From NCBI GenBank assembly GCA_030427805.1, contig JAUICP010000005.1, positions 310,001 to 374,000 on the forward strand: 64,000 bases of DNA, in the 5' to 3' direction. Position 1 is the stretch's first letter, and each line of letters opens with the position of its first letter. Of this stretch, positions 27,050-59,237 are shown one piece after another. This DNA is from Bdellovibrionia bacterium. GTDB lineage: Bacteria > Bdellovibrionota > Bdellovibrionia > Bdellovibrionales > JAGQZY01. A program made the position numbers and the translations under genes. The notes beneath the pieces are model-generated. The model made no database searches. It saw nothing but the letters and a program-made list of their open reading frames with translations, and was not told where the DNA came from.

Positions 27050-27961
27050 ATGAAAAAACTTATTAGTTCAATGCTAGTTTTCGCAACTGTGCTCGGCTTA
27101 TCTTCTTTAGCCAGTGCTTTCCAACAAGAGTACACTCTGGATATGGGTGATCAGCTCATTCAAGCGGGTCCTCGTGTTGGTGCCAAGACAGTCTTTCTTA
27201 AAAGAGAGCTTATTAGAAGATATGGCCTTCGCGGTTTAGACAATGATCAACTCATCAATGTTCGAGTTGTTTCTAAAACTCGCGCCGGTCGTGGTTCTGT
27301 TGCTCTTTATTCTGGACAAAGACTTGTTGAAAAAGAATTTGTTGCCGCTGGTGACTTTAACAAAGATGGTCCACGTACATGGGATCGCGTTGATTTAACT
27401 CCCCGTCGTCCTGGTTTTTCTGTAGGACAAGCGTGGCAGCTCGACTTTGAAGGGTTTCACAAGCTTCGCCGTATCGTAGTTACAGTCAACCACATGCGCG
27501 CGCGCCCAACTCCTCCACCTCGCCCACAACCACCTCAAGTAGGCCGTGGTGAAATTGTTCAACTTGGTGGAACGACTGTTGAGAAATTCTTTATCGAAAG
27601 AGATGCATATTCTCCGAAAGGAAACGTTGTTGTTTCGCAGATTCGCATTAAAGGTGATCGCAACTTCATCCTTGTTGATAACGCTTACGTTGTTTTCAAG
27701 AACGGTCAAAGACGTGAACTCACTGAGCTCGAAGGTATGCTTGCCGATGGTGAAGTAAAAATCGCTCAGGTGGCTAACCGTGGTATTCAAAACATCGTAA
27801 TCGAAGCCGTAAGCGGTTTGATTGGTCCTCGAGGTAAGTACACAGTATCTGTTCGTCAGCACAGAATGGGTGCCGTTCAGCCAAATCCTGGTCGCCCTGG
27901 CCCTGCTCCTGGCAGACCTAGTCGTCCCGGACGTCCTTTCAACGGCGGACATGGTCGATAA
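27050..27961 (+). CDS. Secreted two-domain protein with Pro-rich linkers
   Basis: A 303-residue protein with a signal peptide cut after ASA. Two probable beta-sandwich domains (mature residues about 1-125 and 145-250) are separated by a Pro-rich linker (RPTPPPRPQPP) and followed by a Pro/Gly/Arg-rich tail (NPGRPGPAPGRPSR) that should be disordered. The product is very basic overall. GGGGAAATGTA-type ribosome site precedes ATG 27050. No family is recognised; a surface-exposed or cell-wall-associated role is possible. Confidence 0.75.
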   Translation: MKKLISSMLVFATVLGLSSLASAFQQEYTLDMGDQLIQAGPRVGAKTVFLKRELIRRYGLRGLDNDQLINVRVVSKTRAGRGSVALYSGQRLVEKEFVAAGDFNKDGPRTWDRVDLTPRRPGFSVGQAWQLDFEGFHKLRRIVVTVNHMRARPTPPPRPQPPQVGRGEIVQLGGTTVEKFFIERDAYSPKGNVVVSQIRIKGDRNFILVDNAYVVFKNGQRRELTELEGMLADGEVKIAQVANRGIQNIVIEAVSGLIGPRGKYTVSVRQHRMGAVQPNPGRPGPAPGRPSRPGRPFNGGHGR

Positions 27962-49003: not shown

Positions 49004-50758
49004 TTAGACTTGAGTATATTCCATGCTCGGTGGTCGACGCTTATTCTTGAATTGAATTGCGATCAATGCGACGGCCGCTAAGACAATAACTCCAACCAAG
49101 AGCATTAAGGTCGAATTACCTGTAATAGATTTCTGCCCTATTGTCGGCTGATTCCCAGCATTTTGCGGGTTGTTTCCGGCAATTGGGTCCTGAGCTGGCG
49201 GAGAGAGCTGGCTGATGTCCTCAGGAGGTAATTGCGCTGGCGGTTGTTGAGCAATAGGATCCATCGGTGGTACATCGGGATCTTGTAAGGATCCAATGTC
49301 ATCGACTGGGTCTATTGTTCCGCCCGGATTATTAGCGGCAAATGGGTCAGCACCGGGGTTATTTAAACCAGGAGCCCCATTACCCGAGTTCATTCCGGGA
49401 TCCATTGGATTAGATGGATCACCTAAACCAGGATCAATGGGCTGTCCAGCTCCATTGCTAGCCAAATTGGTCGAGTTGGGATCATTGATATCCTGAGGCT
49501 CGAATCCAGGATCAGAAACAGGAGAAGCGGACGCATTATTAATGGGTACAGAATCCCCGACCCAGTAACTCAAAACTTCGCCTCCGGCTAGGGAGTCCTT
49601 AGAAGAAACGTCCGGGTTAGTAGCCCAAACTTCTTTCCAAGCTCCTTCAAACCCAAGAAAGTTCTGTGAAAGAGTTCTTATATTGTCGCCCGCTTTTGCA
49701 GTATATGTTTGCGGCTGAACGCCAACATCTTCATAAAATGTAAGAACTTTTGTGTTATCAGCAGGACGAGTTGGAGAGTTATAATACATTTTCTCACCAA
49801 CTTTAATGCCATCGCCTAACCAGGGGTTATCGGCTACTAGGTCCGCACTGCGATCTCTACCAAATATTTTGACGGAAACAGCAGTTACAGAGTCACCGGG
49901 ACGCCCTATATAGACTGAGTTTAGTAAGCGTCCATTTTTTTCGTAAGGAGTTGTATAGATTTTCTTTACCGAAACAAGGCCTAAGCGAGCGTTGACTTCT
50001 TCATAGCCACCGACTGCAAACTCATCGCCTTCTCCTTCTTGAAGAGGATCGGCTTCACCGATGTCGTCATTACTATCGAGAGCGACATCTTCAGCTCCGC
50101 CTTCGATCGCAAAATCTTCTTCAGTCAGTCCTTCGTCGACGGGTTGAGTAGCATCTCCGGTATCGGCTACGGCCGCGCCATCGTCGAAATCGGCAAAATC
50201 ATCATCTCCGCCACCTTCATCGACTGCAACTTCACCAGTGTCTCCACCTTCTTCATCGAAATCTTCGAAGTCCTCATCAGAGAATTCTTCATCGCCACCT
50301 TCTTCGGCGAACTCATCACCTTCTTCGTCACCAAAATCATCGTCTTCAAAATCTTCGTCAGCGAATTCGTCACCTTCTTCGTCACCAAATTCGTCGTCTT
50401 CATCGCCAAATTCGTCGTCTTCGTCGGCAAACTCATCACCTTCTTCGTCGCCAAATTCATCGTCTTCATCTGCAAATTCGTCGTCTTCGTCGCCCTCGAA
50501 GTCGTCTTCTACATCTTCACCATCTTCATCTGCAAATTCATCGTCTTCGAATCCCTCTTCTCCATTGTCGTCAGAAAAGTCATCATCTGCGAACTCGTCT
50601 TCTCCCTCGGCTCCACTGGATTCACCGAAGTCATCAGAAAAGTCATCAGAAGGTTGATCTTCAAAATCATCCTCTGTATCCCCCGAACCACATGCAGTGG
50701 TAAATGCGACCACTGAAAGGCTCAAAAGGGCTATTATGAAAAACTTGCGAAGTAGCAT
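49004..50758 (-). CDS. Acidic repeat lipoprotein with LysM domains and C-terminal membrane anchor
   Basis: I start at ATG 50758, seven bases after GGGAG. The 584-residue protein has a lipobox (TTAC, then GSGD), then 245 residues dominated by Asp, Glu, Phe and Gly in short repeats (EDDEFGDEEGDEFADED), two LysM-like domains (about residues 279-330 and 351-400), a Pro/Asn-rich linker, and a C-terminal membrane segment (549-569) ending KNKRR. A lipid at one end and a membrane span at the other could bridge the two membranes and bind peptidoglycan. The domain layout recalls FimV-like and gliding proteins, but I know no exact match. Confidence 0.78.
   Translation of the reverse strand: MLLRKFFIIALLSLSVVAFTTACGSGDTEDDFEDQPSDDFSDDFGESSGAEGEDEFADDDFSDDNGEEGFEDDEFADEDGEDVEDDFEGDEDDEFADEDDEFGDEEGDEFADEDDEFGDEDDEFGDEEGDEFADEDFEDDDFGDEEGDEFAEEGGDEEFSDEDFEDFDEEGGDTGEVAVDEGGGDDDFADFDDGAAVADTGDATQPVDEGLTEEDFAIEGGAEDVALDSNDDIGEADPLQEGEGDEFAVGGYEEVNARLGLVSVKKIYTTPYEKNGRLLNSVYIGRPGDSVTAVSVKIFGRDRSADLVADNPWLGDGIKVGEKMYYNSPTRPADNTKVLTFYEDVGVQPQTYTAKAGDNIRTLSQNFLGFEGAWKEVWATNPDVSSKDSLAGGEVLSYWVGDSVPINNASASPVSDPGFEPQDINDPNSTNLASNGAGQPIDPGLGDPSNPMDPGMNSGNGAPGLNNPGADPFAANNPGGTIDPVDDIGSLQDPDVPPMDPIAQQPPAQLPPEDISQLSPPAQDPIAGNNPQNAGNQPTIGQKSITGNSTLMLLVGVIVLAAVALIAIQFKNKRRPPSMEYTQV
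50240..50640. repeat. Degenerate minisatellite encoding the acidic repeat
   Basis: On the plus strand the block is dominated by TCGTCTTC and TCATCGCC-type repeats, coding on the minus strand for repeated DEFxDE units. Such arrays can expand or contract by slippage in multiples of three without breaking the frame. Confidence 0.8.
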
Positions 50759-51178
50759 GTTAAACTCCCATTCCAACAAGAAATTAAAGTGCACTAGTAT
50801 TGGCGAGGTGACACTTTTATCCCTGTCTTAACCTTTATGATACCGTCCGTTAGGGTTGTCTTATAGTCCTGAAAGCCGCTACCAAGGCCAATTTACAAAA
50901 ACCCACCCTTCGTCATTGGGATATTAAACTAGTTCTTTATCAAAGTCTGATCCGGGTTCGTTTCAAGATAAAACACTCTCCTCACCTTTGGGCTGAAAAC
51001 AGAGTGTCGAGAAACTAAGAAAAGGTCGGGCTAGAAAATTTGAGGTCCAGTGTTTTTCAAACAAAAAACACCGACTTCAGTTTAGAATTCACAGGCAATA
51101 ACGAATAGTTTTAAGAATAAGACTTTTCAAATGAAAAAGTTAAGGGTAAGGCCTTCGATTTTGTTGAAATAAGAATTT
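50759..51178. other. Intergenic region, nothing recognised
   Basis: About 420 AT-rich bases between the acidic lipoprotein gene and hmgA, both on the minus strand. It must hold the lipoprotein promoter. I see no RNA gene, T-run hairpin or convincing ORF. Confidence 0.5.
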
Positions 51179-53422: not shown

Positions 53423-53734
53423 TGGCCTTTTTAAACCAAGAGTTCTTTTTGGTTTTTAGTGAGGTTTTCTCGAACAGTTTATTATTTAGCACTGGAACCT
53501 CTATAAGAAGAGTTCGCTTTTCCTTAAGTTAAATATGAAAGATGCTTTTTGTTTTTTAGCCGAACCATGCACTAATCGTCGCCACTCCATGCGCAAAAAG
53601 TCTTATGACCTCAATTAGGTCTCCTAATGGCTTTAATTGCCCTGTGAGGTCGGCAAGCTTTTCGCAAAAGAGCCAGCCGTACTGAAATTATTATATTATA
53701 ACGATTAATCTATTTTTACTTAATGGAGAATCCC
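53423..53734. other. Intergenic region before the three-gene secreted cluster
   Basis: 312 AT-rich bases with the divergent promoters of the EamA gene and the cluster. ATTATATTATAACG before the ribosome site (TAATGGAGAATCCC) may be part of the cluster promoter. No other element is recognised. Confidence 0.5.
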
Positions 53735-55546
53735 ATGTTGAAAAATACACTCAAAAGGTACGTGCTGGCTCCCGCTCTTGTTGCCTCATTTGCTTTTACC
53801 CCTGTTGCTTTTTCTCAAACTCAAGTTGATGGAACCATCGCGACTGTACAATCTGGCAGTGCCATTGGTTTTAACCAGGACGGAACCTACGACTTCAACC
53901 AAACTTCTCAAGATAATACTCGAGTTATCCAAGATATCTTAAATAGAAAAGAAGACTTGAACCAACAAGATCGTGCTTTCTTAGAAAGCGTTGTTGATCG
54001 TATGAACACACAACTTGCTGATATTCTTGTTATTCGTGACGAAATCAGAAAAATGAGTCAAGACTCTTTAGCAAAAGAAGTTTCACTAAATGACTTCTTA
54101 GCTGTTTCTAATAAATTAAGAACAGCCCTTGACACTCTCGATCGTGAACTTGACCTTAACACTGTAATCACAGCTGATTCTCTTCCTTCTGCCACTGAGA
54201 TTTCTGTTGGTGACCAAGACATCACCTCTCCTACAGTTGGTAATATTGACTTTGGGCCTCTTGTAGAAAGAGTAAATGGTCAAAAATCATCAATCTTATC
54301 TGACCTTGATAATTATTCGGTAAAGGTTATTACTGAAATGCTCGACTCTAGAGAATTCTCTGGTGCTCAGGCTTTCTTAAACCCTGACCTTGCTTGCCTA
54401 CAAATTATTGGCCCCGATCGCCTTGAAGAGTTGAACCTTCAAATTGAAGAGAATAACCAGCTCACACGAAGAACTAGAGACCTTCTTCAAGGGCTTGTCG
54501 ATAGCCTACCTAGCCTCATTCAAAACTTTGTAACTGAATACGGTACAAGTGAGTGGCTTCGATTCACAAACGAAAACGATGCCATGGCTGCTCGAGAAGA
54601 GTTCATGAAGATTCAAGAGTTATTCTTTGTTCGATCTTACATGCGTGCTCGTTACCAGATCCCTATTGGAGCTTTCCAACCGGGTCCTAGCTTTGAAGCC
54701 AAAAAATGGATTGTTAACCTTGAAGACCTGACTCATCAGCCTCTCGTTCAAGCTCTTAAATCAGAAAACTGGTCACGTACTCTCGCAGTTACTGATCTTG
54801 AACTCGTTCAAGCTTTTGCAAAAGTTCGTCACTTCGTTGAAATGTACGACAAGAAAACGATCGAAGTTTTCGCATCACGCGACGATCTCGATGCTCGAGA
54901 AGAAGCTAACAACTACACTGCTAAAGATGTTGGTTTCGTAACTCGAATCAACGCCGCATTTACTTGGGCTACTGATCAAAGAGCAACGACTGAAGTTCTT
55001 CTTGGAATCTTAAAGCTCATGTTAAACGATATCCGCGAAGAAATGATGCTTACGAGCTTTGACAATACTGCTCAACAAAACTTTCACGAGCAAAATTACT
55101 TTGCAACTCCAGCCATGGCTGACAACAGCGCTCGCATTATCTGTAAGGTCGATTCTGATCGTTTCAATAATCAAAGGCCTGTTAAAGTTAATGTTGGCGG
55201 TCAAGTTCGCGATATGACTGAAGGTCAAAGAGATTTCTTAGCAACTTGCGGAAACCTCACTGATGCCAATGGAAATCGCATGTACACCGGTTTTGATCAG
55301 ATCCCAGCTCTTCCGCGAGCTCAAAGAGGACGTAACCTTGTTGCAGTTGTAGGACAAATCTTTCAACAAATGAAAACGACTGAAGCCGCACGGTACAGAA
55401 TTGTCGAGAACGCACAATCGCTTATGAATGGCTACGAAGCGTCTCGCTATACTTGCGAAGCTGGAGATGACTCTCCCGTACTTAACCTCGACGGAACTCC
55501 TGTTGATGGTGGAAATGACGGAGACTTCGGAAGCTTCTTCAACTAA
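53735..55546 (+). CDS. Large secreted protein, first gene of unknown cluster
   Basis: I start at ATG 53735, seven bases after GGAG. The 603-residue product has a signal peptide cut after AFS. The mature protein is mostly helical and rich in Asn, Asp, Gln and Leu, with only about four Cys, and coiled-coil-like stretches in the first 250 residues. The last 15 residues are Asp/Gly-rich. Codon use is rich in CTT/GAA/AAC types as in well-expressed genes of this window. No family is recognised. It begins a block of three secreted proteins. Confidence 0.75.
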   Translation: MLKNTLKRYVLAPALVASFAFTPVAFSQTQVDGTIATVQSGSAIGFNQDGTYDFNQTSQDNTRVIQDILNRKEDLNQQDRAFLESVVDRMNTQLADILVIRDEIRKMSQDSLAKEVSLNDFLAVSNKLRTALDTLDRELDLNTVITADSLPSATEISVGDQDITSPTVGNIDFGPLVERVNGQKSSILSDLDNYSVKVITEMLDSREFSGAQAFLNPDLACLQIIGPDRLEELNLQIEENNQLTRRTRDLLQGLVDSLPSLIQNFVTEYGTSEWLRFTNENDAMAAREEFMKIQELFFVRSYMRARYQIPIGAFQPGPSFEAKKWIVNLEDLTHQPLVQALKSENWSRTLAVTDLELVQAFAKVRHFVEMYDKKTIEVFASRDDLDAREEANNYTAKDVGFVTRINAAFTWATDQRATTEVLLGILKLMLNDIREEMMLTSFDNTAQQNFHEQNYFATPAMADNSARIICKVDSDRFNNQRPVKVNVGGQVRDMTEGQRDFLATCGNLTDANGNRMYTGFDQIPALPRAQRGRNLVAVVGQIFQQMKTTEAARYRIVENAQSLMNGYEASRYTCEAGDDSPVLNLDGTPVDGGNDGDFGSFFN

Positions 55547-55560
55547 CCTTCAATCTGAAC

Positions 55561-55592
55561 AAGACCTCAGCAAATGCTGAGGTCTTTTTTTG
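55561..55592 (+). terminator. Terminator-like hairpin between cluster genes
   Basis: AAGACCTCAGC/GCTGAGGTCTT around AAAT is followed by TTTTT. It stands 14 bases after the first cluster gene and 26 before the second. It should cut most transcripts after gene one, leaving lower expression of the next two genes. Confidence 0.85.
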
Positions 55593-55617
55593 CCTACTAA
55601 CTAACAGAGAGTGAACA

Positions 55618-57639
55618 ATGAAAATTCTAATGATTCTATTTTCAATTTCTCTTTCAGCAGGCTTCGCTCAAGCATACCCCTATGAGTGCAGTCAGTCTGG
55701 AAAACGATGCTCTGACGCTGGCTACAATGAAATTCCCGCTCCAAGGGAACGAATCGTCCAGCCTCCTCGAGAGCAAGTCATGGGAAATTGTGGCGAAATG
55801 CTCCCCTTAGAGCACTCCTATCAAAATCAATTTCGAGGTTTTTCTTGCGGTGAAGCCGGAGAGAGAACCGTTCGTACAGCCCACCAACACGACCCAGAAG
55901 CATTTGCGCGCTGGGAAAACATGGCTGGCGCTAACCTGCAAAATGAAAGACAAGAACTCCTTCAATTTGACCTTAATTGGGAAGGCGAATTGGATTTCTT
56001 AGTTAAAGAACACTACAGCTATGTAGAGCTTGAAGGTGACTTCTTGAGTACATGTAACGGTTACTCAAACACAGAACCTTACTCTACAACCTGTTATGTC
56101 AACGTCGAAGAGCAGTACACTTACTACGTTACTGTTAATACGACCTGTGCCGAATACTACCCCGAGCCTGAACCATCAACCTATGATTCTGGTGGTTCTA
56201 CCTACAGTCCCGGTGGATCGACTTACACTCCACCTTCAAGTCCTGGAAGTGGATTTGGTGGAGGTTCGAATCTAGGAACTGGTTTCGATCGTGATTCATC
56301 CTATGATGACTTCGATGGGTCTTTCTTTGACTTACAAAAATTCATGGAAGAAAGAAAACTCGTCCCCGAAATCGAAACAGTTCCAGCCTATACTGTAACT
56401 CGTAAACTGGCTGCCAACTGTAAGAGATGGAATACTAGAGAAGAGCCTCGCACAGGATGGAGAAGTGCTGGTAGAGAATCTTATTCGTGCACCAAGACAC
56501 GAAACAAATTTTGCATTTACCCTGTGACCCGCAATGCCTCTCGCAGCTGTGGAAATCACAAAGCAAAATATTCTGTCGACTTCGAAAAAGATCCTAATTT
56601 TAAACCTGGCTATGTAGACGCAAGTCAACCCCACAGAAGCTACTATGATGAACTTCCAAACAAATACGACCTTCTCAACGGTGAGTTTGAAAAGTACATC
56701 GTTTATACAAACCTTGGTACTTCATCTATTGGTGGTAGCATTTCTCCAGTTTTTCACTTTGACGAAGATGAGATGTTCAATGAGTACGAGTACTCAGTGG
56801 ATCAACCGCAAATTCGCTGTGAATACGGGATGGCTCCTGAATTCAATATTTCTGTGACGACTCTTGGACGTATTCCAAGAAGAGCTCCCAATCCACTCGC
56901 TTTTCCTGTTGATGAAGATGGAAATATTCAAAGCCCCATATCTTTTTCTGGTGGTGATCCGACTGTGAATGTAAACATCGACGAAGCTGGTGACCCGAAC
57001 CTTGATATACTTGGTGCGGGCAACCCCACTGAAATCGTTCTTTTCGATAAAGCTCGAATGTTCATGCTCATGGCATCAGAACAAAGTCGACTCTTTTCTC
57101 GACCTGTTGGTGCTCCCGAAGCTGATGATGATGCGAATCTTGTCGCTAACAATAACGTCGTCGGTGTGCAAAGCATGGATCAAGAAACGGCTTTCTTCTA
57201 TCGCGGTCGTTTTAAACTTCAGCTTTTTAGAAATGAAGGACTTTTAGGAAGAGAATTGATCATGTCTCGCCCACTCACTTTTAGCAACGACTCACAAGCC
57301 GATGTTTTTATGGACGAGATCCTCATTGATCTCGAAGGTAACGATGGGCTCGATCCTCTTATGCGAGGACCAAGAGTCTTCTTGCCGATGTTCAGCTTTA
57401 TGACTCGTGAACTCGGTGGCTGGGTCAAGCCAGGTGCGGAACACTATATTAAGATTCAAGTGGCGCAGCAAAGTTTCCCATTTTACATCAGCGGATGTGA
57501 TGACAAAGAATGTGACAGTGATGAAATTGAGGCCGCAGCCTACAGTGAACCACTCTACATTCGCTGGGAAGCCGATCGCAGTGTTGATGACAGAACCTTT
57601 ATCCAAAAGCTTTTGGATGCAACTCGGTTTCAATTTTAG
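55618..57639 (+). CDS. Large Cys-rich secreted protein, second gene of unknown cluster
   Basis: A 673-residue protein with a signal peptide cut after AQA. The first 330 residues hold about twenty Cys, many in pairs (YECSQSGKRC), so an elaborate disulfide pattern is likely. A Gly/Ser/Pro linker (GGSTYSPGGSTYTPP) at about residues 190-230 divides this part. The C-terminal half is Asp/Asn-rich and looks beta-rich, with a few Cys near the end (SGCDDKECDSD). No family is recognised. It follows a terminator-like hairpin after gene one and precedes gene three by 9 bases. Confidence 0.75.
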   Translation: MKILMILFSISLSAGFAQAYPYECSQSGKRCSDAGYNEIPAPRERIVQPPREQVMGNCGEMLPLEHSYQNQFRGFSCGEAGERTVRTAHQHDPEAFARWENMAGANLQNERQELLQFDLNWEGELDFLVKEHYSYVELEGDFLSTCNGYSNTEPYSTTCYVNVEEQYTYYVTVNTTCAEYYPEPEPSTYDSGGSTYSPGGSTYTPPSSPGSGFGGGSNLGTGFDRDSSYDDFDGSFFDLQKFMEERKLVPEIETVPAYTVTRKLAANCKRWNTREEPRTGWRSAGRESYSCTKTRNKFCIYPVTRNASRSCGNHKAKYSVDFEKDPNFKPGYVDASQPHRSYYDELPNKYDLLNGEFEKYIVYTNLGTSSIGGSISPVFHFDEDEMFNEYEYSVDQPQIRCEYGMAPEFNISVTTLGRIPRRAPNPLAFPVDEDGNIQSPISFSGGDPTVNVNIDEAGDPNLDILGAGNPTEIVLFDKARMFMLMASEQSRLFSRPVGAPEADDDANLVANNNVVGVQSMDQETAFFYRGRFKLQLFRNEGLLGRELIMSRPLTFSNDSQADVFMDEILIDLEGNDGLDPLMRGPRVFLPMFSFMTRELGGWVKPGAEHYIKIQVAQQSFPFYISGCDDKECDSDEIEAAAYSEPLYIRWEADRSVDDRTFIQKLLDATRFQF

Positions 57640-57648
57640 AGGTAAATT

Positions 57649-59178
57649 ATGTGGTATAAATTATTTATTAAATTATTGTTTTTAGTTGTACTCGGCGCCT
57701 CTTCTGCAGTTGCTCAATTGACTGTTCCGGAAGACGAAGTCGGTACTGTCAATTATGTTCGACCAGGGACTCGAGTTAAAGATCTTATCGATCGAGCCGA
57801 GGCCATTAACCCCGACTACGATTCACTCCCCGGTGAATTTACTTATGACCTACCTATCGTTGATAACATCGAAGATTTTCACGAACTCGTCGATCAAACG
57901 GTTTATAGTCTCGACAATTTAGAAGCTGTCGTACGCGACATCGGCTATTGGCAAGAAATTGCCGGTGGTGCTATTACTGAGCTTGTTGTCGATGAAATTT
58001 TTAAACGCGTTCGAGTGGGTTTTGCTCTTCTTGGCAGCATTGCTGCTGACGATAATATTCCTAGTGATCGTCAACTAGAAGCTTTTAGGGAGCTTACGGT
58101 TTCTCTAGATCAGCTTCTTAAAGAAGTACTCAACGAGCCTGGTCAGGATATTCCGGACATTACCTATGAGCCGACTTTTTCTGATCGTTACTTTGGATGG
58201 GTCAAGGAACTCCGCGATTCAGCTTTCAATCGTTTTAAAAAGACTCCCGTTCGAATGGACGAGAGAGTTGATAACGAGCTCGATCCCTACACTCAACGCT
58301 ACATCGATGGCGACATGAGTGATGAGGAGTACAAAGCCAAGAAATATGAAATCACGGCGAAGTACTTCCCTAAGTTTGTTGAAGAGATGAAAAAGCTTGA
58401 TCGTAAGTTCATTGAAGGACGACTTCTCACTCCAGAAGAGCGAAGAGCTTACCAAGGAGACCCAAAGGGTCTTGAAAAAGCGCGCGAAGCTAAATACCGC
58501 ATCGAAGAAGACCGCCTCGTGAGACTTCACTATGGTACGGGTGTTCGCACAAGTCGCGAGCGCAAAAACCGTAGAATCCTCGGCGATCGTCTTTTAAAAG
58601 ACGTTGTCTATGAATATGCCAAATATTCTATCAACGAATTTGATGCCGAAGATCCTGAAGATCGTCGTGGCGTTACTTTTTGGAAGAATCGCTTTATCCC
58701 AAAAGTTCGCTGGCTTAAAGAACGTCGTCTCTGGAATCAGCGTGTCGCAGTGGCCGTCCCTTTTGTTGCCGCTATTGCTGGCTTAACCGGAACCTTCTTT
58801 ACCGGTATCGGTTGGGATTGGTATGCAGCTGTATCTCACCTTCCTTACTGGCTAAAATTAACGGATATCCCTGGTGGTTACACAGCCTATTCAAGCGCGA
58901 TTTCACAACTTGGGTATTTTGCTCTTTGGATGTCGGTAACGATTTACCAGAGAAGTACGATCAGTCGCGATATCGTAAGAAGTTTGCGTAAGATCAAGTA
59001 TCTTTTCGAAAAGCCACATGAAGTTCTTAAGAAGCAACAGCAAAATGGTGGAATTGATCCTCCAAGCTTAAGGGAACGTTTCACTCCAAACTGGCTAAGA
59101 GGTAGAGGTGCTGATGATACTCCTCAATCTCGGGCAGAGAGTTTACCAATGACCTGCGAAGGCTCATTTGTTCTCTAA
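57649..59178 (+). CDS. Large membrane protein, third gene of unknown cluster
   Basis: A 509-residue protein with a signal peptide or anchor (residues 5-22), then a charged, mostly helical region (25-370) and two membrane segments at about 368-389 and 422-440. The region from 190 to 300 is Arg/Lys/Glu-rich, coiled-coil-like. A cytoplasmic or periplasmic scaffold tied to the inner membrane seems likely. AGAGG precedes ATG 57649, 10 bases after the upstream stop, so it is co-translated. No family is recognised. Confidence 0.72.
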   Translation: MWYKLFIKLLFLVVLGASSAVAQLTVPEDEVGTVNYVRPGTRVKDLIDRAEAINPDYDSLPGEFTYDLPIVDNIEDFHELVDQTVYSLDNLEAVVRDIGYWQEIAGGAITELVVDEIFKRVRVGFALLGSIAADDNIPSDRQLEAFRELTVSLDQLLKEVLNEPGQDIPDITYEPTFSDRYFGWVKELRDSAFNRFKKTPVRMDERVDNELDPYTQRYIDGDMSDEEYKAKKYEITAKYFPKFVEEMKKLDRKFIEGRLLTPEERRAYQGDPKGLEKAREAKYRIEEDRLVRLHYGTGVRTSRERKNRRILGDRLLKDVVYEYAKYSINEFDAEDPEDRRGVTFWKNRFIPKVRWLKERRLWNQRVAVAVPFVAAIAGLTGTFFTGIGWDWYAAVSHLPYWLKLTDIPGGYTAYSSAISQLGYFALWMSVTIYQRSTISRDIVRSLRKIKYLFEKPHEVLKKQQQNGGIDPPSLRERFTPNWLRGRGADDTPQSRAESLPMTCEGSFVL

Positions 59179-59206: not shown

Positions 59207-59237
59207 AAAAACCTCCCTCCCAAGGGGGGTTTTTTTT
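59207..59237 (+). terminator. Terminator of the three-gene cluster
   Basis: AAAACCTCC pairs with GGGGGGTTTT (one G-T pair), with TTTTTTTT after it. The stretch on to 59501 shows nothing else. Confidence 0.85.

Follow-up and report, generated by a model that had tools for sequence, protein, structure and literature searches.

Do three consecutive genes that match nothing in the family libraries encode the parts of a single, undescribed system of the cell envelope? This question was raised by a cluster in a 64,000-nucleotide stretch of Bdellovibrionia DNA (the window, meaning the whole stretch that was analysed), for which a first-pass annotation had proposed three large proteins of no known family acting together. 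The positions of the three consecutive plus-strand genes, of 603, 673 and 509 codons at 53735–59178, were verified. Gene 1 (53735–55546, plus strand) encodes protein 1 (603 aa), with a signal peptide at about residues 1–27, a Gly/Ser/Asn-rich N-terminal tail that carries a conserved G-x-Y, and a long alpha-helical part. Gene 2 (55618–57639, plus strand) encodes protein 2 (673 aa), with a signal peptide at about residues 1–19, a long disulphide-rich beta-ribbon, a beta domain with the motif [LI]PNK[YF]DLLPGE, and a C-terminal beta domain. Gene 3 (57649–59178, plus strand) encodes protein 3 (509 aa), with a signal peptide at about residues 1–22, a helical domain, a C-terminal hydrophobic hairpin and a cysteine near the C terminus. 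The start of gene 1 at 53735, as first annotated, is favoured over an in-frame ATG at 53723 because a GGAGA Shine-Dalgarno motif, read from the sequence at 53725–53729 (plus strand), lies directly before it. The upstream intergenic region (53423–53734, plus strand), mostly kept in the congener G001, is likely to hold the promoter and leader; no consensus promoter in this region scored above shuffles.

All three genes are genuine and under strong purifying selection, since their dN/dS ratios against G001 are 0.03, 0.05 and 0.005 for genes 1, 2 and 3, respectively, similar to or under those of the neighbouring enzymes; the encoded proteins are 97%, 97% and 99.6% identical to those of this congener. 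The export signals claimed earlier are present, as sequence reading and hydropathy place a Sec-type signal peptide at the N terminus of each protein, with cleavage sites that read as A-x-A or A-x-S type. The statement that the proteins belong to no known family was likewise borne out: none of the three matched a family above chance in Pfam, NCBIfam, PHROGs or PADLOC. Across 23 protein 2 and 19 protein 1 family members there was no consistent Pfam match, and no enzyme or known domain was found in any member examined. Rfam gave no match in the window. Sequence matches in the PDB, among them one of low complexity to an engrailed entry, were dismissed as chance. The sequence families and their association appear to be new, and the mechanism put forward here is a proposal. 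Our preferred reading, to which we assign a probability of about 40%, is that the three genes specify a single assembly of the envelope or surface, abundant and obligately linked, in which protein 1 would be the bulk subunit and protein 3 the membrane anchor, while protein 2 would serve as stalk or adaptor.

Single-protein BLAST against 60 relatives recovered the congener alone, and the resulting picture of an orphan cluster was overturned by an order-wide search and by profiles. Among 141 genomes of the order, weak protein 3 matches were found in three further genera; a protein 2 homologue lies directly upstream of each of them, and these loci hold genes 1, 2 and 3 in the same order. When 369 genomes from the phylum were scanned, a protein 2 profile detected 26 of them, and a rebuilt profile agreed. 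An independent protein 1 profile matched 25 of these 26 carriers and had no clear match in the other genomes of the 369; in the remaining carrier the contig stops inside gene 2, so that gene 1 is out of reach. Wherever the contig allows (23 of 23 loci), gene 1 stands immediately before gene 2 on the same strand. The set occurs in about 24 genera and many GTDB families, with one copy per carrier genome. The flanking genes are unlike between loci, and the fetched loci showed no recurring neighbour family other than the two genes described below (gene X and a fourth gene). The first-pass annotation had advised such a search for conserved neighbours in Bdellovibrionota and had named two outcomes that would speak against a joint system, namely genes lying apart in most relatives or strong matches to separate known families. 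Neither occurred. Its core claim, that exported proteins cooperate here in a system not described before, is strongly supported by the adjacent, ordered pair of genes 1 and 2 and by a gene 3 family confined to this locus.

Marginal protein 2 matches in two genomes of genus g16 (E about 1e-3; one spans four stops) were dismissed as noise, as were three marginal protein 3 matches. This genus, taken to be Bdellovibrio, has no convincing protein 1 or 2 match at profile sensitivity. A scan of genome contigs for the signature P-N-K-Y-D-L-L-x-G-E, which rested on this one short stretch of protein 2 and which relatives in other phyla could escape, returned 17 named records. All of them are metagenome-assembled, and most carry the label Bdellovibrionota, Bdellovibrionales or Bacteriovoracaceae.

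The trees of proteins 1 and 2 have well-supported deep groups in common; the window clade and the pair G058 and G348 are each supported at 100/100 in both. The constant linkage of proteins 1 and 2 and the congruence of their trees at depth suggest an ancient set that was inherited as a unit. The main clades combine different taxonomic families, which probably reflects either vertical inheritance with repeated loss or a certain amount of transfer of the complete set. That the genes are selfish or mobile cargo (a phage, plasmid or defence module) would agree with the patchy distribution and with the mixing of families in the tree clades, which suggests some horizontal transfer, but we regard this as very improbable: no PHROG or PADLOC family was matched, the gene set was not found in plasmid, phage and viral collections, including IMG/VR, at the sensitivity used, and single copies under strong purifying selection sit among ordinary flanking genes. 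A very divergent branch is formed by the loci of G058 (L086, 6847–11000) and G348 (L087, 6699–11007), two genomes of different taxonomic families that are sisters in both trees; it suggests a transfer or an ancient paralogue.

Downstream of gene 2 the loci differ. In the window clade (G000, G001, G079, G083, G086, G114 and G271) the protein 3 gene directly follows gene 2. In most other loci this place is taken by gene X, which encodes an exported helical protein unrelated to protein 3, and in G270, G317, G277, G276, G364 and probably G352 gene X precedes a fourth gene, one similar to the protein 3 gene of the window. The kinship of this fourth gene with protein 3 rests on an hhalign probability of 86% together with a common architecture, in which a signal peptide and helices precede a hydrophobic hairpin at the C-terminal side and a cysteine near the end. 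A joint profile of protein 3 and the fourth gene matched 12 genomes, all of them carriers of the set and always in this locus; it had no match in the other 14 of the 26 carriers, which counts against the proposed assembly. Because locus content varies after gene 2, genes 1 and 2 are, as far as these loci can be compared, a fixed core, with gene X and the protein 3 gene as putative exchangeable modules. The notion of a three-gene system is upheld in that the gene 3 family is found in this locus alone, and weakened in that the presence of gene 3 varies between loci. Two C-terminal membrane segments had been assigned to protein 3. By hydropathy the first (residues 366–384) is clear, whereas the second (about 415–433) is weak in the window copy, although the hydrophobic hairpin (58744–58947, plus strand) recurs across the family.

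Individual loci showed some peculiarities. The protein 2 gene of G114 is split by an in-frame TAG (L010, 16552–18468), though gene 1 there ends normally with TAG; either the copy is decaying or the assembly is in error at this point. The same locus adjoins flagellin and other flagellar genes (L010, 8509–9342 and 14027–14938), which other loci do not. In G086, a REP-type transposase-like gene with the motif HFHMLASF (L024, 5504–6157, minus strand) lies just downstream of the set.

Of the proteins in the set, protein 2 alone keeps strongly conserved stretches of sequence throughout the phylum. In the alignment of 23 members, Cys159 and Cys401 are invariant, Cys77, Cys299 and Cys311 are near-invariant, and so is the family signature P-N-K-Y-D-L-L-x-G-E (residues 347–356; 56656–56685, plus strand). 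The AlphaFold2 model (mean pLDDT 68, pTM about 0.5) predicts four unusually long strands (residues 119–142, 152–180, 268–296 and 298–323), followed by beta domains. Strands 1 and 2, with Cys159, are encoded at 55972–56157 (plus strand) and have pLDDT values mostly about 80–92; strands 3 and 4, which carry the conserved Cys291, Cys299 and Cys311 by model and alignment, are encoded at 56419–56586 (plus strand). Between Cys177 and Cys268 lies a Gly/Ser/Pro-rich loop (residues 181–267; 56158–56418, plus strand) with pLDDT mostly under 50. It had been described as a linker between domains, but is instead a disordered insertion between long strands 2 and 3 that is specific to the window clade. The loop near Cys177 has 74–128 residues in six aligned members and 9–21 in all others. 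Cys268 is limited to the six long-loop members, and Cys177 is present in all six, and therefore a disulphide between the two residues probably closes the loop. Nothing in the PDB or among viral folds matched the protein 2 model below E = 1e-3; Foldseek paired it weakly with beta-pore proteins and with receptors of the fibronectin type (TM about 0.1, E above 1e-3), a resemblance dismissed as generic to long hairpins.

A variable loop of this kind could be the binding part of a system of fibres for adhesion or prey handling, comparable to those on the surface of Bdellovibrio; alternatively, protein 1 could bind. The carriers belong to a phylum of predators, the proteins are exported and apparently abundant, and the loop ranges from 9 to 128 residues among members. 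The MAT proteins of Bdellovibrio bacteriovorus form trimeric fibres with variable tips, some of which have an S74 domain (PMC10769870). They resemble the cluster proteins in being exported, in coming from the same phylum and in their proposed action at the cell surface. The cluster proteins, however, are a fixed gene set, and the MAT-type Pfam match is absent from them and their relatives; no S74, tail-fibre or adhesin family was matched in Pfam or PHROGs. The MIDAS-family adhesins of Bdellovibrio (Bd0875; PMC11003981) are also exported proteins of this phylum, with a candidate role in attachment that the cluster would share. The cluster, unlike them, has no conserved DxSxS motif and no von Willebrand A domain: the DxSxS strings that occur are scattered and non-homologous, and Pfam detected no such domain. 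With the genus taken to be Bdellovibrio also lacking a convincing match, we consider a fibre system of this type quite unlikely.

Protein 1 has a profile without a conserved block, and its conserved C-terminal DDLF motif is found in the window clade only. The AlphaFold2 model is helical (mean pLDDT 65, pTM about 0.5) with a disordered N-terminal tail, and protein 1 had no PDB match by fold, nor by sequence beyond chance. Clues to its amount come from codon usage. Calculated against the genome's own ribosomal-protein operon, the codon adaptation index (CAI) of gene 1 is 0.689, level with ribosomal proteins and second among the 55 genes of the window (mean 0.588, sd 0.044); gene 3 (0.662) is fourth and gene 2 (0.651) seventh. 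The CAI of gene 1 exceeds that of gene 2 in 15 of 17 genomes (the window and 14 of 16 others), with one tie and one reverse. Judged from this codon bias, protein 1 is apparently abundant. High codon bias can, however, also mark a periplasmic or metabolic protein that is made in quantity, and the values of genes 2 and 3 are themselves fairly high. Low amino-acid cost, considered as a sign of an extracellular protein, put protein 1 on the cheap side (seventh of 55), which is not decisive. The top CAI in the window (0.706) belongs to a gene for an exported protein of 303 aa (27050–27961, plus strand), which is probably another very abundant envelope protein.

A complex with an internal role, in periplasmic stress, folding or cell-wall maintenance, would agree with the disulphide-rich protein 2, with the helical protein 1 and with a protein 3 that evolves very slowly (dN/dS 0.005 between the two congeners). 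We consider it doubtful, since no chaperone, protease, thioredoxin-like or peptidoglycan-binding domain was found in the 23 protein 2 and 19 protein 1 members and since a housekeeping function would not be expected to show so patchy a distribution (26 of 369 genomes).

The cluster had been described as ending at one terminator. An intrinsic terminator is indeed found at the cluster end (59213–59236, plus strand; kept in G001), but a second strong one, a putative attenuator, sits between genes 1 and 2 (55561–55592, plus strand). It has a perfect 11-bp stem, a loop of 4 and a T-run (z = -3.7), and is also preserved in G001. The gap between genes 1 and 2 exceeds 40 bases in nine loci, eight of which have a stable stem-loop there, namely the window and seven other distant loci whose stem-loop sequences are unrelated to each other. 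The fold is clearly more stable than shuffles in six of the eight (not in G083 and G114). A clear T-run is present in only some, and therefore the others may serve as stabilisers of the mRNA 3' end. In 12 of 21 loci the junction of genes 1 and 2 is tight or overlapping, with no room for a terminator, which counts against the attenuator part of the proposal. In operons for surface structures, a terminator after the gene of the major subunit is a general principle. The present locus resembles these operons in having the stem-loop right after its first and most codon-biased gene; it differs in that the stem-loop is found in fewer than half of the loci and in that the proteins are unrelated to known subunits.

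The abundant, linked assembly that we prefer could work as follows. Proteins 1, 2 and 3 would exit the cytoplasm through Sec. The alpha-helical protein 1, produced in large excess, would be the bulk structural subunit, and protein 2, with its beta domains and a long beta-ribbon locked by disulphides, would act as the stalk or adaptor that binds it. Protein 3 would sit in the inner membrane by its C-terminal hairpin, with the C-terminal cysteine outside, and would anchor the complex or help to assemble it; in other clades the product of gene X would replace or join it. The terminator after gene 1 would let part of the transcripts continue into genes 2 and 3 and so set the subunit ratio. From obligate linkage, co-inheritance, codon bias, stem-loops, conserved cysteines, export and the protein 3 hairpin we infer that the proteins form a physical complex, what each of them does in it and where it ends up. 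The lack of enzyme or known domains, the invariant cysteines and long beta-ribbon of protein 2 and the helical protein 1 would suit a structural function better than an enzymatic one. AlphaFold2 models of only moderate confidence and without a PDB match count against this reading. The "envelope machine" of the first-pass annotation is an inference that fits the signal peptides, cysteines, membrane hairpin and codon bias; surface attachment, its example of a role, is conjectural.

In the fetched loci, genes for an outer-membrane channel, an usher or a secretion system do not recur beside the set, which counts against the preferred reading because the products would need a route to the surface. 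A rival reading is a periplasm-spanning transport or secretion apparatus, in which protein 3 (with X) would be the inner-membrane part and protein 2 a long beta-stalk crossing the periplasm, while protein 1 would form a tunnel in the periplasm or carry substrate. The export of all proteins and the membrane hairpin of protein 3 are compatible with such an apparatus, and the predicted strands of protein 2, of 24–29 residues, could reach far. It is nevertheless unlikely in our view, as the loci examined hold no ATPase, outer-membrane barrel, secretin or recurring neighbour that could power or open a channel, and as protein 1, the most abundant by codon bias, would be odd as a machine part. The envelope part of F-type type IV secretion systems includes the Cys-rich TraN, the helical TraH, and TraU. 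The cluster is similar in combining a Cys-rich exported, a helical exported and a membrane protein. However, the Pfam matches of the family members (23 for protein 2, 19 for protein 1) include no Tra family, genes for an ATPase, a relaxase or a pilin do not recur nearby, the flanks differ by locus, and the cluster was not found on plasmids. Chaperone-usher pili were dismissed as well, with no usher or chaperone Pfam match in the set and no recurring neighbour beyond it.

The more specific form of the preferred assembly, a new appendage or coat particular to Bdellovibrionota in which a helical subunit of new fold is carried on a disulphide-locked beta-ribbon, with exchangeable membrane anchors and a ratio set by the attenuator, is possible, and we put it forward tentatively. 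The locus is a conserved and apparently highly expressed multi-gene system in a predator phylum, and it is absent from every family library searched. Should it encode a surface structure, it would add a new class to the envelope assemblies of bacteria and open a way to study how members of this phylum, largely uncultured as they are, encounter surfaces, prey or hosts. With the family profiles and the signature motif, the set can be looked for directly in other genomes and put to the test.

Elsewhere in the window, a lipoprotein-like gene on the minus strand (49004–50794, 596 aa) encodes long acidic repeats of the DDEFADEDDEFG type, together with stretches that resemble LysM and a membrane segment at the C terminus. 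On the opposite strand, the repeats leave long open shadow frames (50039–50716).
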